The notes under the pieces: generated by a model
What the model was told of the DNA's origin: nothing
The model's input: the letters and a program-made list of their open reading frames with translations, nothing else
Databases searched by the model: none
Made by a program: the position numbers and the translations under genes
Origin: Fidelibacterota bacterium MT.SAG.3
GTDB taxonomy: Bacteria; Fidelibacterota; SORT01
DNA: 53,149 bases
Direction: 5' to 3'
NCBI GenBank assembly: GCA_004402895.1
Contig: SORT01000010.1
Coordinates: 1-53,149 of the forward strand
Part shown: piece by piece, positions 9,801 through 52,621 of the stretch
Numbering within the stretch: the stretch's first letter is position 1
Layout: each line of letters begins with the position of its first letter

Positions 9801-10196
9801 ATGGCTGACGGTATTGTTCATATAGAAATCCCTGTTAAAGATCTCGAAATTACTCCAAAATTTTATTCAGCTGTTTTCGGTTGGGAGCTAACACCCGTAC
9901 CCGATAATGACTATGTGCTCTTTACGGCAGACGGCGCCGGAATAAGCGGAGCCTTCGTTAAACCCGAGATTTATCAAATCGGCGGGTGTGTCGGTTATAT
10001 CCAAACCAAAAATCTTGAAGAATCGCTAAAACTTATCGAGGAAAAAGGCGGCACTACACAGACGGAACGTCAAGAAGTGGGCGATGCGGGATGGTTTGCA
10101 CTCTTTACCGACCCTGACGGAAATCCGATGGGTCTCTGGGAAAACCATAAGCTGAGGACACTTCGTGTCTTTTATAATCAGTACCCCAATCTTTAG
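9801..10196 (+). CDS. VOC-superfamily (glyoxalase/bleomycin-resistance-like) protein
   Basis: 131 residues from the ATG at 9801. An upstream in-frame ATG at 9789 is less likely because GGAG at 9791-9794 is a well-placed ribosome site for 9801. It has the single beta-alpha-beta-beta-beta repeat pattern of small VOC proteins: [22 protein letters not shown] at the start, [14 protein letters not shown] in the middle and [11 protein letters not shown] at the end. The substrate cannot be read from sequence. A TTGACA (9709-9714) with TACTTT (9733-9738) is a possible promoter. Its 3' end overlaps the copper ATPase stop by four bases on the opposite strand. Confidence 0.88.
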
Positions 10197-12628
10197 ATTT
10201 TTAAATTCCTCAACCTCAGAGCATTCCCGATTACGGTTACGGAACTGAAGCTCATCGCTGCAGCGGCTATCATCGGACTTAGGAGCAGACCGAAGAACGG
10301 ATAGAGTACTCCGGCAGCCAACGGCACGCCCAAAGCATTGTAAATAAACGCCCAGAAAAGGTTTTGCCGTATGTTCCGCATCGTACCTCTGCTGAGCTTC
10401 CGCGCTCTCACGATACCCATCAGATCACCCTTAATCAGCGTTATGCCGGCACTCTCCATAGCGACATCCGTTCCCGTTCCCATCGCAATTCCTACATCCG
10501 CCTGAGCAAGAGCGGGAGCGTCATTGATACCGTCGCCAGCCATCGCTACTCTCTTTCCCGTTGACTGAATCTCCTTTACGATAGAGTGCTTTTCATCGGG
10601 CATAACATCCGCTTTCACTTCTTTAATGTTCAACTCTTTAGCAACCGATTCGGCGGTTTTCCTGTTGTCTCCCGTCAGCATTATGACTTCGATCCCTTCC
10701 GCTTGTAATTGGAGCAGAGCTTCCTTCGTTGTCGATTTAAGCGGATCTGAGATTCCGAGAAAACCGGCAGGTTCGCCGTCGATCGAAACAAAAACGACGG
10801 TCTCCCCTCTTTCCCTATTCTCGTTAGCTTTCGTCTCTAAATCAGTTCGCTTTACTCCCTCTTCACTAAGTAATTTCGTATTTCCTACCGCCACAAGTTT
10901 GCCGTCAACCTTTCCCTTCACCCCTCTACCCGTAAGCGATTCAAACTCCTTAACATCGAGAAATTCGAGATTTCTCTCTTTTGCCGCGGCGACTATCGCA
11001 TTCCCGAGAGGGTGTTCGCTCATTCGTTCTAAACTTGCAACAACTCTGACCAGTTCATCCTCGCTCCTGCCGTTTAGGGAGACAACAGTCACGAGTTTCG
11101 GTTTTCCTTCTGTCAGTGTTCCTGTTTTATCTACCACAAGCGTATCTATCTTCTCGAACGTCTCGAGCACTTCAGCGTTTTTTATCAACAAGCCGGCAGT
11201 CGCTCCACGACCCGTGCCGACCATTATTGATATCGGAGTCGCAAGCCCGAGAGCGCAGGGACAGGCGATTATGAGTACCGCCACCGCGTTCACAAGCGCG
11301 TAAGCCATTTTCGGGTCAGGACCGACTATACTCCAGACGATGAATGTGATAATGCTGAATCCAACTACCGCGGGAACGAAATACGATGATACCTTGTCCG
11401 CCAACCCTTGTATCGGCGCTCTGCTACGCTGAGCTTCGCTCACCATCTTGACGATTTGCGCAAGCAAAGTATCGCTTCCCACCCGCTCGGTTTTCATGAG
11501 AAAACTGCCGTTACCGTTCACCGTTCCTCCCGTGACGGAATCACCTAAAGATTTCTTGACTTCCATCGGTTCACCCGAGATCATCGACTCGTCTATAAAA
11601 CTCTCGCCGTCCGTTACTTTTCCGTCAACCGGTACTTTTTCACCTGGACGAACCCGCAGCAGATCGCCGACCATTACATCCGCTAAAGGAATATCTTTTT
11701 CTTCTCCGTTCTCATCCACAATTCGAGCGCTGTTCGGTGCCAATCCGAGCAGTGATTTAATTGCGCTGCTTGTTTTACTCCTTGCGCGCAGCTCGAGCAC
11801 CTGTCCGAGTAAGACCAAGGTTGTTATTACGGCAGCCGCTTCAAAATATAATCCTACCTCACCGTTCGCGTCTCGAAAAGCAGCTGGGAAAATTTCAGGA
11901 AAGAGTGTCGCAACCACGCTATATATGTATGCGACCCCCATTCCAATTGCGATAAGAGTGAACATATTCAGTGACTTATAGACGATTGAATCCCAGCCTC
12001 GTTTGAAGAAGGGCGTTCCCGCCCAAAGAACTACGGGCGTTGCAAGAACTAATTCAAACCAGTTTCCCCATCCCGAACTGTCGAATGAGATTGCCGGGAA
12101 CATCTTCGACATCGTAAAGAGCAACAGTGGCAGAGAGAAAACCGTACTTACCCAAAATCGCCTGCTCATATCCGTAAGCTCTGGGTTCTCCTCTTCTCTT
12201 AAAGTGACTGTCCGCAGTTCTAACGCCATCCCGCAGATAGGACACGACCCTTGTTCGTCTTTGACCACTTCAGGATGCATCGGACAAACGTACTCCTGCT
12301 TGGTGACGATGACAGGCTCAAGCGGCTCTAATCCCATTCCGCATGTCGGACATGAATCAGGTCCCATTTTTTTAATTTCCGGGTGCATCGGACAAACGTA
12401 AATCACCTTAGTATCACTTTCATGGTGATTATGATCGTGATGCTCATGCCCTGCATCATGTTCAGCTTGTTGATGTACCGCATCTTCAAGAGGATATTTT
12501 TCAGGGTCTTTGTCAAAAGTTTCTTTACAATATTCAGAGCAGAAGTAGACAGTTTTTCCGTTGTGCTCGCTTTTTCCGGCAGCGTTCTCCGGTTCTATAT
12601 TCATATGACATACTGGATCAATAACCAT
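10193..12628 (-). CDS. copA: Copper-translocating P1B-type ATPase with N-terminal YHS and CPMHP metal-binding domains
   Basis: 811 residues. In order: a YHS domain (about 3-45, DPVCHMNI and [11 protein letters not shown]), a His-rich linker (about 50-72), two heavy-metal-binding modules each starting with VCPMHPE and containing CPxCGM (about 75-102 and 115-140), then the ATPase core with [10 protein letters not shown] in the metal-transport helix, [15 protein letters not shown] and [10 protein letters not shown]. The last helix has [16 protein letters not shown], the Cu(I)-type signature. It pumps Cu(I) out of the cytoplasm. There is no classical HMA domain; the YHS/CPMHP set replaces it. It lies nine bases after csoR and should share its operator. 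Confidence 0.96.
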
Positions 12629-12637
12629 TTCTTCACC

Positions 12638-12916
12638 TTATCTTAAAAATTTATTCATCTCATGGAAAAGCTCGTCCACCTTTTTTTCAGCGGCGTTTCC
12701 TTTGGTTTCAGCAAAAGCATCTTTGACACAACTCTTGACATGCCGCTCCATAATTACGAACGAGAGTGAGTCGAGCGCTTTTCTTACGGCTGTGATCTGA
12801 TTGACAATATCCATGCAGTACTTGTTATCGGCGACCATCCGTTCGAGTCCACCGACTTGCCCTTTGATAGCTTTAAGTCTTCTGAGCGATTTTTTCGTTG
12901 TTATTTCGTCAAGCAT
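12638..12916 (-). CDS. csoR: CsoR-type copper-sensing transcriptional repressor
   Basis: 92 residues of the all-helical DUF156 family. The metal ligands of CsoR are present: Cys in NKYCMDIVNQ and the His and Cys in RHVKSC (C-H-C pattern), which favours Cu(I) over formaldehyde (FrmR) or nickel (RcnR) sensing. LRRLKAIKGQVGGLERMV is the family N-terminus. Cu(I) binding is expected to release DNA. The gene precedes copA and has an ideal operator 25 bases upstream. Confidence 0.93.
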   Translation of the reverse strand: MLDEITTKKSLRRLKAIKGQVGGLERMVADNKYCMDIVNQITAVRKALDSLSFVIMERHVKSCVKDAFAETKGNAAEKKVDELFHEMNKFLR

Positions 12917-13010: not shown

Positions 13011-13730
13011 TTATTTCCCGCTAGAAGGGCGGACGAATATCTCTTGCGCTACATCCCTGTCAAGCGCTACTTCTGTCTGATTTACCTTTACCACAAATGA
13101 TGGAATTTTCTGATACAACTTTATCTCCGCGCCCGGTTCCACACCAAGCAGTGTCAATCGCTCGTAACGTTCGTGATAAGCGGGAGTAGTAAACATTATC
13201 TTTGAAGTGGTGCCTACTTCAACCCTGTCGAGCGGAACAACAACTTGAGTTACCTCAGTTTTGAATCCCTTACAACACTCTCCACGCGGGATCTTCCTCC
13301 CGTGAGGACAATAAGTGGGGTGTCCGAGAAAAAGAGCATCATCGGTCATGTTAAGATCCATGATCATCGGCTGGTCGAGTTCAGCTAACTGAATCGTGAG
13401 GAGCAACCCCCTTTTAAGATTTTTTGAATCGACGATCTTGACAACCGACTTAGGATTTTCTCTGAGAAGAAGATCTCTTGTTACCTGCTCGTCTTCGGAG
13501 GAGGGCAGTAGATTATTTACGCCCGGCGTATCGATTATTGTATCCTTTGTGCCGTTAGCGCTTAATGTTCCCCTCGAAATCTCGACCGTGGTGCCGGGAA
13601 AGTTTGATACGGTTACGTACTTTCCAGAAAGATAACCGAATATAACACTCTTACCGACATTCGGATTTCCGACAAGAACAACCAGGAGGTGTCTTACTTT
13701 TTGTGGAACTTCGTGTGTGTCCGTGCACTG
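13011..13730 (-). CDS. FeoB GTPase domain fused to DtxR-type C-terminal segment and FeoA domain; no normal start codon
   Basis: The frame is open for 239 codons. Counting from the codon after the Fur stop, residues about 17-130 are a FeoB small-GTPase domain: G1 GNPNVGKS (21-28), G2 PGTTVE (45-50), G3 DTPG (66-69) and G4 NMTD (127-130). At about 13335 it switches to LFLGHPTYCPHG and IPRGECCKG, the metal-site segment of DtxR/IdeR-type regulators, then a FeoA/SH3-like domain (about 155-235). All FeoB membrane helices and the DtxR helix-turn-helix are missing. No ATG, GTG or TTG occurs before a TTG at 13406, inside the GTPase domain. The reading frame is continuous with fur across its TAG. It may be a decayed iron-transport remnant, an internal-deletion artefact or a real chimeric regulator. 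Confidence 0.7.
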   Translation of the reverse strand, partial: QCTDTHEVPQKVRHLLVVLVGNPNVGKSVIFGYLSGKYVTVSNFPGTTVEISRGTLSANGTKDTIIDTPGVNNLLPSSEDEQVTRDLLLRENPKSVVKIVDSKNLKRGLLLTIQLAELDQPMIMDLNMTDDALFLGHPTYCPHGRKIPRGECCKGFKTEVTQVVVPLDRVEVGTTSKIMFTTPAYHERYERLTLLGVEPGAEIKLYQKIPSFVVKVNQTEVALDRDVAQEIFVRPSSGK

Positions 13731-14171
13731 CTAATTATTCCTTTTCCGGCATTTATCACACAGACCGAAAATAATGAGATTGTGTTTTGTGGGGAAAAAA
13801 TCGTGTTCTTCGCAGATTAAATTCTGCTGTTTTTCAATGACTTTATCACTGAACTCAATGATCTTTCCGCATTGTGTGCAGACAAGATGTTCATGATGCT
13901 CCTGAGCAAGCGTATTCTCGAAATGCACCTGACTTGCGCCTACATTGACCCTGGAAACGAATCCATTTTCGACAAGCAGATCAAGCGTCCTGTAAACGGT
14001 CGCTCTTGAAACCGCTTTTTTCTCTCTGCGCATACGGAAATAGATCTCATCCGCATCAAAGTGCTCTGAGGAGCTATAGACTTCCTTAAATATTAATAGT
14101 CGGGCCGGGGTACACTTCATACCGTTCGTATGGAGCGTATCTTTGAATTTTTCTAATAAAGTTTTATCCAT
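13731..14171 (-). CDS. fur: Fur-family ferric uptake regulator
   Basis: 146 residues, full length. A winged-helix DNA-binding half (about 1-85: LHTNGMKCTPARLLIF, VSRATVYRTLDLLVENGFV) is followed by a metal-binding dimerisation half with HHEHLVCTQCGK and CDKCRK, the two CxxC pairs of the structural zinc site. It represses iron-uptake genes when Fe(II) is bound; PerR- or Zur-like specificity is possible, but the iron-related neighbour favours Fur. It ends with an amber TAG directly followed, in frame, by the FeoB-like reading frame. A Fur-box-like site lies 18 bases upstream, so autoregulation is likely. Confidence 0.92.
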   Translation of the reverse strand: MDKTLLEKFKDTLHTNGMKCTPARLLIFKEVYSSSEHFDADEIYFRMRREKKAVSRATVYRTLDLLVENGFVSRVNVGASQVHFENTLAQEHHEHLVCTQCGKIIEFSDKVIEKQQNLICEEHDFFPTKHNLIIFGLCDKCRKRNN

Positions 14172-25845: not shown

Positions 25846-26010
25846 CTAATCGGCGCTCACACTAAGATTTCTTTGAGTTATTACGCCCATATTTTCTCCC
25901 TTTTCCATCTCCACCACAGCATGATAGCTTATTGCAAACGGCAGTTCAAGAGGATTGTGATAATATTCTCTCCGAGAACCTTTAAACATTATGTTAACGA
26001 CGTTATCCAA
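25846..26010 (-). pseudogene. N-terminal fragment of a RicT/PSP1-domain protein
   Basis: Between holB and metG a 54-codon frame starts at a TTG (26010-26008), five bases after the holB stop, and encodes NVVNIMFKGSRREYYHNP, then VVEMEKGENMGVITQ. This is the beginning of RicT/YaaT (PSP1) proteins, which start with a VVxVRFK...YYFxP...ExxxGxxxG pattern and continue for 200 or more residues with Cys-rich Fe-S segments. Here the frame stops at SVSAD-TAG, leaving only the first subdomain. The order holB-ricT-metG is common, so I read this as an internal or 3' deletion of ricT. A short functional peptide cannot be ruled out. Confidence 0.65.
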
Positions 26011-26015
26011 GACAG

Positions 26016-27110
26016 CTACCTTATTTCACCTTTATTTCCATTCAACCTCAAGAGCATGCGTGATTCGAATACCAATGCTGAAAAAATCATTGGAATATAT
26101 ATGTTTCGTCCCACCAAATCAATCGCTTTGTCGAATTGCTCTCCTATTTTTGAACCGGTAATTCGGGATATATCGTTGATCCCGCCCTTTAATATTAATC
26201 TGAGCGCTATAAGGAAAATATCTGCTAATTTTTCCTTACCCTCCGATGAAATTGCTGTCAACTTTCGATTCATCGAGACAATATCTGAAGCCAACCCTGA
26301 CCGGATAGTTGCCACTAATTCATCCGCGACCGCCGACCGTTCTTCAATTTCCCCCTCTTCCATCAGTTTTAACGCCTTGGAGATATCGCCTTCGACAATT
26401 TTAACAATTGATCTTACTTCCTCCACCGGATTCCCGAAACTGACGAGCTTCTCCGTAACTTGAGCATCCGTCAGACCTTTTAGCTTGATTTCTTGACAGC
26501 GTGAACGAATTGTGGGAATCAACGAGTTTGGCTTGGATGTAGTAAGAAATAAGAATGTATCCGGTGGAGGCTCTTCTAACAATTTCAAGAATGAATTTGC
26601 GGCCTCATCGTTCATCATTTCTGCCCTTGACAGAATTATAACCTTTTTGCCCGGCTCGGCGCTTTTAAGATAAGAATTCTCTCTCAGTTGGCGAATGCTG
26701 TCTATTCTTATGAATTTTGCCTTCGGAATTTCTATTCTATAGTAAGGGTTTTTCGCTTTTTTAGTAATTTCGAGTTGAATTTTCTCTAAAACCTCTTCAC
26801 TTAAACCGTAAAGCGGATCGGTAGATTTGTTTTTGGAAGCGCTTCTGCTTTTCCCCCCCGGTAACGGATAGACGAATTGTACGTTTGGGTGCTCGAGAGA
26901 GTTTATGCGCCTGCAAGATGAGCAGTTTCCGCAAGCGTATGGTCCTTCTTCGGGACAATTCAATAATTTTGCTATTTCGAGAGCAAAAAATTCTTTTCCG
27001 CAGCCGGAGGGTCCGGAAATTAGGATAGCGTGAGCAAGCCTATCTTTCTTCCAAGCGTCCAATATGAATTTTGTCCACTTTTCTTGTCCGATAATATCGT
27101 CAAATGCCAT
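26016..27110 (-). CDS. holB: DNA polymerase III delta-prime subunit (clamp loader)
   Basis: 364 residues of the AAA+ clamp-loader family: FDDIIGQEKWTKFILDAWKK at the start, a P-loop GPSGCGKEFFALEIAK, a zinc finger in CPEEGPYACGNCSSCRRI and the sensor region SFLKLLEEPPPDTFLFLTT followed by SRCQEIKLK. It helps load the beta clamp on DNA. The P-loop retains a Lys, so it may bind ATP, unlike E. coli delta-prime. It lies two bases after the EnvC-like gene. Confidence 0.93.
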   Translation of the reverse strand: MAFDDIIGQEKWTKFILDAWKKDRLAHAILISGPSGCGKEFFALEIAKLLNCPEEGPYACGNCSSCRRINSLEHPNVQFVYPLPGGKSRSASKNKSTDPLYGLSEEVLEKIQLEITKKAKNPYYRIEIPKAKFIRIDSIRQLRENSYLKSAEPGKKVIILSRAEMMNDEAANSFLKLLEEPPPDTFLFLTTSKPNSLIPTIRSRCQEIKLKGLTDAQVTEKLVSFGNPVEEVRSIVKIVEGDISKALKLMEEGEIEERSAVADELVATIRSGLASDIVSMNRKLTAISSEGKEKLADIFLIALRLILKGGINDISRITGSKIGEQFDKAIDLVGRNIYIPMIFSALVFESRMLLRLNGNKGEIR

Positions 27111-51259: not shown

Positions 51260-52621
51260 CTAAATTGTCTCCACGCGAACTTCAGGTTTTACCAATTCTT
51301 TGTCGATCAGCGCAGGCCAGTAAGCATAAATGTTCTTCGGGCGCGGTCTGCCGCCGGCAAATCCCGTGATACCTGGCGGTCCATTTGTGATCAGGGGCGC
51401 CAACTCTTTTCCGAATCGCTCGACTGCCGCTTTATCATTGTCACGCACTCCGAGTCGAAGCACGATCTCATTGACCTGTTCCGGCATCGGGTTAATATCG
51501 CCATGGCTTGAATTCAACCCGAGAAATTCGGTGCTTGTTTCTTCAAACTTACATCCGGCATTTTCCAATCGTTTCCAAATGATCTCAGCGCATTTTTTCG
51601 CTTTTGCCACGGCGAACGGTCCGGAAATCGTCAAGCTTCCTGACGCTTTATACCCAACAAAATGATTTATAGACACCTTATAAGTATCCGTTGCGGCACT
51701 GCCCTTTACACCGCTGATACGAATCCGGTCTGCACCATCCTCCTCCAGCTCTATACTTCCGAAATCCACAACGCAATCAGGTGTTATATAATTTGACGGT
51801 TCTCCCATTTCATACAGCAACTGCTCGCTCACCGATTGTTTATTTATCAATCCGCCAGTTCCTTCATGTTTCGTAAGTACGAAAGACCCGTCCTCGTATG
51901 CCTCAACGATCGGATAGCCTATATTCGCATAATCGGGTACATCCCACCAACGCGTGTAATTTCCGCCGGTACTTTGCGCCCCGCATTCCAGGATATGGCC
52001 CGCAACCGTACCCGCGGCAAGCAGGTCGTAATCGGTCACCTTCCACCCGAAATCATGCATCATCGGCGCAAGCGCCAACCCGGTGTCGGTTACCCTGCCG
52101 GCAATAACAATATCGGCTCCCTGGTCGAGCGCTTCCGCCATTGAAGCGGCGCCGAGATATACATTGGCAGAAACAATATCTTTTCGAATTTCTGAGAGCG
52201 GTTTCCCCGAATCCATATTATTTAGTTCAGCTCCGTTCCCCAAAAGCTCATCTAATCGTTCAAGAATATCATCGCCGCTTACGATGCCTATTTTGACGCC
52301 GCTAAGTCCAAGCTCCTTTGCCGTCTTTCTTAACGCATCAAAACAGGAGTCGAGGTTAACTCCACCGGCATTTGTGACGACCTTTATCCCCTTTTCAATC
52401 AGCTCAGGAAATATCTCCCGCATAACCTCCACGAAATCTGAAGCGTAACCTGTTTTCGAATTTTTACTTTTCTGCCGCTGCATGATAGACATGGTAACTT
52501 CTGCAAGATAATCCAATGTCAGATAATCTATAGGACCTCCCCGCACAAGCCGTGCGGGAGCATCTACAGAATCGCCCCAAAAGCCCTGACCGTTCGCTAT
52601 CCGTATCGGCTCGGATCTCAA
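51260..52621 (-). CDS. AtuA-like (DUF1446) acyclic terpene utilisation protein
   Basis: 453 residues of DUF1446: IRIANGQGFWGDSVDAPARL at the start, VTNAGGVNLDSC, IVIAGRVTDTGLALAPMMHDFGW, ECGAQSTGGN and the end ITGFAGGRPRP. AtuA is required for citronellol/geraniol growth in Pseudomonas, but its reaction is not settled. Its neighbours (carboxylase, hydratase, dehydrogenase) fit CoA-ester breakdown. The start overlaps the carboxylase stop by four bases. Confidence 0.9.
   Translation of the reverse strand: MRSEPIRIANGQGFWGDSVDAPARLVRGGPIDYLTLDYLAEVTMSIMQRQKSKNSKTGYASDFVEVMREIFPELIEKGIKVVTNAGGVNLDSCFDALRKTAKELGLSGVKIGIVSGDDILERLDELLGNGAELNNMDSGKPLSEIRKDIVSANVYLGAASMAEALDQGADIVIAGRVTDTGLALAPMMHDFGWKVTDYDLLAAGTVAGHILECGAQSTGGNYTRWWDVPDYANIGYPIVEAYEDGSFVLTKHEGTGGLINKQSVSEQLLYEMGEPSNYITPDCVVDFGSIELEEDGADRIRISGVKGSAATDTYKVSINHFVGYKASGSLTISGPFAVAKAKKCAEIIWKRLENAGCKFEETSTEFLGLNSSHGDINPMPEQVNEIVLRLGVRDNDKAAVERFGKELAPLITNGPPGITGFAGGRPRPKNIYAYWPALIDKELVKPEVRVETI

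Follow-up and report, generated by a model that had tools for sequence, protein, structure and literature searches.

A 239-codon open frame of FeoB, DtxR and FeoA sequence as a probable deletion pseudogene of a standard feo operon

The FeoA domain of DtxR-type proteins normally works inside the repressor. The iron site of CdDtxR consists of Cys102, Glu105 and His106, together with Met10 (PMC4805248). Natural fusions of FeoA and FeoB also exist; one of them was purified and assayed, and the known fusions place FeoA ahead of a complete G domain (PMC8980893). We analyzed a frame in which FeoB, DtxR and FeoA sequences follow one another in that order, located in a 53,149-nucleotide stretch of DNA (the window, meaning the whole stretch at its full length). 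A literature search combining Marinimicrobia, pseudogenes and iron transport found nothing. The three closest genomes with the locus assembled, G001 (same genus) and G003 and G004 (same family), were used for comparison.

The stop-free frame comprises 239 codons on the minus strand (13014-13730), with a stop codon at 13011-13013, and contains the following parts.

13333..13682, minus strand: remnant of a FeoB GTPase domain, G1 to G4 only (Pfam FeoB_N 3-118 of 156; 92% amino acid identity to residues 18-134 of G001 FeoB)
13251..13331, minus strand: end of the dimerisation domain of DtxR, FLGHPTYCPHGRKIPRGECCKGFKTEV, which follows the lost metal ligands (Fe_dep_repr_C 55-70 of 70, below the cut-off; G001 homologue aligned to solved DtxR/IdeR chains)
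13026..13238, minus strand: complete FeoA (SH3-like) domain from a former dtxR-feoA gene (Pfam FeoA 39 bits, 1-74 of 74)

FeoB_N matched residues 17-132 of the frame with 138.5 bits, and among solved structures the first half was closest to FeoB G domains, aligned within residues 17-136 at most. The GTPase motifs G1 (GNPNVGKS), G2 (NFPGTT), G3 (DTPG) and G4 (NMTD) are kept; directly after G4 (NMTDDA), the sequence becomes that of the DtxR tail. Only 16 positions of Fe_dep_repr_C were matched, with 17.3 bits against a cut-off of 27. FeoA occupied residues 165-235, above its Pfam cut-off of 23 bits, and is the sole complete unit in the frame. The earlier note, made from the sequence alone, had described FeoB motifs G1 to G4 followed by a DtxR segment and a FeoA domain, and the Pfam results show this list of parts to be essentially right.

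The losses in each half were considerable. FeoB lost G5, the last part of the Ras-like fold, the helical GDI domain and the whole membrane part, including the gate and FeoB_C. DtxR lost its N-terminal winged-helix DNA-binding domain and the metal-binding helix with the motif ACKFEH. The absence of the FeoB membrane helices and of the DtxR DNA-binding helix, already noticed earlier, was thus borne out by Pfam and by alignment with the relatives. The ACKFEH motif of G001 aligns to ACRWEH of a solved DtxR/IdeR-type repressor and sits in the deleted part, upstream of the retained piece. The kept CPHG...GECC piece comes after the ligand motif, just beyond the real metal site, so the retained FLGHPTYCPHGRKIPRGECCKG is not the metal-site region for which it had been taken. 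A GTP switch and a DtxR iron sensor are thus both incomplete in the frame, and FeoA alone is complete.

Compared with FeoB transporters (TIGR00437, Pfam FeoB_N), the frame has G1-G4 and 92% amino acid identity to the full-length FeoB of G001, but it is without G5, the GDI domain and the membrane part. Its TIGR00437 score was 131.8, below the cut-off of 315.65, whereas the G001 gene scored 393.7. Like DtxR proteins with a C-terminal FeoA (IdeR/DtxR; PgMntR, PMC4805248), it carries a dimerisation tail and one complete C-terminal FeoA, and the full gene occurs at this place in G001; unlike them, its DNA-binding domain and known metal ligands are deleted. Bacteroides fragilis FeoAB (PMC8980893) likewise combines FeoA with FeoB G-domain sequence in a single frame. 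However, FeoA stands ahead of a complete FeoB there, whereas here it follows a truncated G domain in an order that resulted from deletion.

In G001, G003 and G004, the locus has the order fur, feoB (about 650 aa), a short spacer, dtxR+feoA, csoR and copA, although the G001 contig ends within csoR. The dtxR gene with its C-terminal FeoA forms a separate open frame of 234-236 codons in these relatives. The neighboring genes and the junction in the window are as follows.

13731..14171, minus strand: fur, an intact 146-codon regulator gene upstream of the feo remnant (Pfam FUR 118.3 bits; aligned end to end with the relatives)
13332..13335, minus strand: deletion junction; the absent segment, 2079 bp by comparison with G001, comprises the remainder of feoB, the spacer between the genes, and the DNA-binding and metal domains of dtxR (alignment and blastn)
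12638..12916, minus strand: intact csoR-like regulator gene downstream of the remnant (Pfam Trns_repr_metal 90.1 bits; aligned with the relatives)
10193..12628, minus strand: intact gene for a CopA-type metal P-type ATPase, a conserved neighbor (72-73% amino acid identity end to end to G003 and G004)

The last 106-112 residues of the relatives' DtxR-FeoA protein were matched in the window with 88-92% identity, and the FeoA part shared 91.5% amino acid identity with G001. By blastn, 2 unassigned bases at the junction in the window stand against 2081 in G001, giving a net loss of 2079 bp, or 693 codons. Among exact repeats of at least 9 bp between the breakpoint flanks in G001, we found one 9-mer, which lies away from the junction, and none at the junction itself. 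That the frame is open is unsurprising, because each half once coded for protein and is still read in its native frame, and a third of all joins between two such ends stay in frame. The comparison with relatives agrees with the earlier proposal of one deletion between feoB and the downstream dtxR-feoA. It also revealed full feoB and dtxR genes here in the relatives carrying the locus, a finding which, according to the same note, would make the frame an assembly or local deletion artefact. Intact homologues at the same place in relatives, together with lesions that disrupt the gene, are what characterizes a deletion pseudogene, and both were observed here.

The start of the frame carries a second lesion.

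13726..13728, minus strand: original GTG start of feoB, which no longer shares a frame with the GTPase domain and opens a dead peptide of 25 codons, VHGHTRSSTKSKTPPGCSCRKSECR, that ends in a stop (aligned with G001, G003 and G004)
13683..13685, minus strand: one extra base, CTCCTGGTTG where three relatives have CTCCC-GT, causing a +1 frameshift (alignment)

In the three relatives, feoB starts with GTG or TTG right after fur, at a conserved GTGCAC/TTGCAC. The coding sequence that follows the GTG is retained in the window (VHGHTRSSTKSKTPP, compared with VHGHGSVSVDGKTPP in G001). The 1-bp insertion was found in the window alone, and all three aligned relatives are without it. Because of this extra base, the feoB GTG is out of frame with GNPNVGKS and reading stops after 25 codons. 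With the extra base, the remnant shares the reading frame of fur and follows the fur stop codon, which explains why the frame reads open back to 13730. There is no ATG, GTG or TTG before codon 109 of the 239-codon frame, the first being the TTG at 13406, beyond G3. The lone candidate start in frame ahead of G1 is a CTG at codon 16 (13685), so the frame does not have the translation start in frame with the G domain that marks a FeoB transporter.

We consider it very probable, from these sequence comparisons, that the 239-codon frame is a pseudogene left by a deletion in a standard feo operon, that both the deletion and the frameshift are real, and that the damage is recent. The ancestor would have had an ordinary operon of fur, feoB and dtxR+feoA, followed by csoR and copA. 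The comparison with the relatives shows that one 2079-bp deletion with no end repeat joined feoB just after G4 to dtxR+feoA just after the metal-binding helix, and that a separate 1-bp insertion upstream of G1 cut the GTPase remnant off from the feoB start codon. What is left would therefore yield neither a ferrous-iron transporter nor an iron-dependent repressor, nor a proper fusion protein. Rather than a new protein, the remnant is most likely a dead gene.

The age of the damage was estimated from substitutions. Relative to G001, the G-domain remnant showed a dN of 0.031 and a dS of 0.90, and the FeoA remnant a dN of 0.051 and a dS of 0.63. The intact neighbor fur had a dN of 0.076 and a dS of 0.80, and the ratios of the remnants are similar to or lower than those of intact neighbors. 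These low ratios would reflect strong purifying selection overall, which is expected if the damage is young and is no direct proof of decay; they suggest that the two genes were still functional during most of the divergence. Since both halves are highly conserved, the damage appears recent relative to the split from G001. Private amino acid changes numbered 10 in the window (6 in the G domain and 4 in FeoA) versus 2 in G001 (1 + 1), and synonymous codon changes 41 (27 + 14) versus 32 (16 + 16). The excess of private amino acid changes, as raw counts with the lesions in one genome, is suggestive of recent relaxation, and not proof.

An alternative is that both the 2079-bp gap and the additional base arose in assembly or in a chimera formed during DNA amplification, and that the living cell has an intact feo operon. 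This is unlikely, though it deserves more weight than the other rival readings. Two lesions lie within 350 bp of each other in an incomplete genome, every relative with the locus is intact, and both lesions rest on one assembly (69% complete, 116 contigs). On the other hand, a repeat-driven collapse has no substrate here, as the lone 9-mer in the G001 flanks is off the junction; assembly collapse at a repeat was therefore rejected. Another clean deletion on the same contig was also confirmed by an independent genome, that of the sister species G002.

25846..26022, minus strand: ricT remnant (RicT/YaaT family), in which an in-frame deletion of 651 bp with its junction at 25860 left 61 of 277-278 codons (aligned with the relatives; common to G002)

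The ricT homologue in G001 belongs to NCBIfam NF041131. The deletion is at the same place in G002 (94% nucleotide identity), and therefore it was inherited in the genus and is no assembly fault; real internal deletions thus occur in the lineage of the window, where gene loss of this kind is nothing unusual. Between the window genome and G002, the ricT remnant showed a dN of 0.070 and a dS of 0.086 (dN/dS about 0.82), whereas the adjacent metG showed a dN of 0.009 and a dS of 0.239 (dN/dS 0.04). The ricT remnant thus appears to evolve almost neutrally, like a dead gene. Both remnants have a clean internal deletion, no repeats at the ends and intact neighbors. However, the ricT deletion is found in the sister species too and is near-neutral, whereas the feo remnant is known from one genome. 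The G002 contig with ricT ends at 6.2 kb, short of the feo locus, which is not in that assembly. A ricT homologue in G004 (G004:C15:40770-41588; L185, L190; 71% identity) contains one internal TAG stop, possibly an independent loss or a gene-end effect.

The rest of the window also speaks against an artefact. Its genes with a syntenic relative align end to end, except at the feo locus and ricT, and no further clean gene-internal deletion was found in the synteny of the remaining window or in about 35 kb on two other contigs. General assembly sloppiness is unlikely given this tidy synteny and the ricT deletion common to G002. A 1060-bp difference near 52.6 kb is due to an extra gene of about 336 codons in G001 (L146:15940-17000; G001:C4), which G002, G003 and G004 are also without; its flanking genes adjoin in the window (52618-52621) and in these three genomes. 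Part of a 154-bp intergenic difference beside csoR is a dispersed repeat of about 77 bp present in G001 (L117:263-340; G001:C45), which occurs at many places in the window genome, G001 and G002 and is missing beside the csoR of the window.

The genome was also searched for other feo genes. No other FeoB was found in the window genome assembly, where the remaining FeoB_N matches were much weaker and belonged to other GTPase-like frames; FeoB_C above the cut-off and a split FeoB permease were likewise not found in it. The search for another full feoB proposed in the earlier note thus gave none in this 69%-complete assembly. G001, G003 (G003:C32) and G004 (G004:C2) have a second feo locus with a split feoB, which in G001 (L193; G001:C35:103500-107510) encodes a G protein of 266 aa and a permease of 464 aa beside a DtxR-type gene. 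This locus was not found in the window genome or in G002; its absence from the window genome is not readable as loss because the assembly is 69% complete.

It is very unlikely that the 3' part alone is alive as a short product of some 110-130 residues that begins at TTG 13406 or at one of the ATGs in 13367-13349 and consists of FeoA with a Cys/His-rich leader. In-frame starts are present there, and the FeoA domain is complete and conserved (91.5% amino acid identity to G001). However, no ribosome-binding site was seen at the usual spacing before the inspected starts, and a GGGGG directly abuts the TTG. The assembly contains no FeoB for this FeoA to serve, and a DtxR-type FeoA domain usually acts within the repressor.

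A functional soluble switch, which would require translation of the fused frame, for example from CTG 13685 or through recoding, and would sense GTP or iron, is more improbable still. Such a switch, suggested by the earlier note, is favored by the open frame, by the intact G1-G4 and FeoA, by the low dN/dS relative to G001, by the natural FeoA-FeoB fusions, of which one has been assayed (PMC8980893), and by the free-standing G protein of split feoB in close relatives. Nevertheless, the 1-bp insertion removed the start, leaving no ATG, GTG or TTG ahead of G1, and each sensing unit is broken within its fold: the FeoB side is without G5, the last part of the Ras-like fold and the GDI domain, and the DtxR side without the metal ligands and the DNA-binding domain. 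The known fusions put FeoA before a complete G domain (PMC8980893), and no second example of this architecture was found. A young expressed polypeptide of G1-G4, DtxR tail and FeoA, started at the CTG, might bind GTP or a partner, a second FeoB for instance, and modulate iron uptake, but we regard this as equally far-fetched.

Among the matches listed, no fusion of FeoB-G, DtxR-C and FeoA was found in 60 relatives or then in the other 244 of 245 phylum genomes, so the search of Marinimicrobia genomes for the same junction, also suggested earlier, yielded no other genome among the 245. The listed matches besides the window were separate FeoB, DtxR-FeoA or other GTPase frames. No fusion in one frame was present among 72 public loci from other genomes, 28 of which have feoB closely followed by a separate dtxR-feoA gene. 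This tandem order is thus widespread, with examples in Nitrospirae, Myxococcales and Elusimicrobia records. Four public ORFs aligned past the junction (L052, L070, L078 and L086) were rejected as ordinary full FeoB or DtxR-FeoA proteins. Two short G-domain frames were also rejected, one in G121 that runs into the contig end and one in G221 with an early stop near the contig end and no FeoA sequence. A conserved fusion family was rejected, as no second genome with the same junction occurred among the 60 relatives, 245 phylum genomes, one scan of genome contigs and 72 public loci.

In summary, the comparisons favor a deletion pseudogene, and one deletion across two separate genes can yield an open, motif-rich frame resembling a designed fusion. 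A working fusion would represent a novel type of soluble iron/GTP sensor, but the evidence is against this. The biological meaning is modest: one lineage of a Neomarinimicrobiota genus appears to have lost the full-length Feo operon, while other family members keep it together with a second, split-feoB locus.
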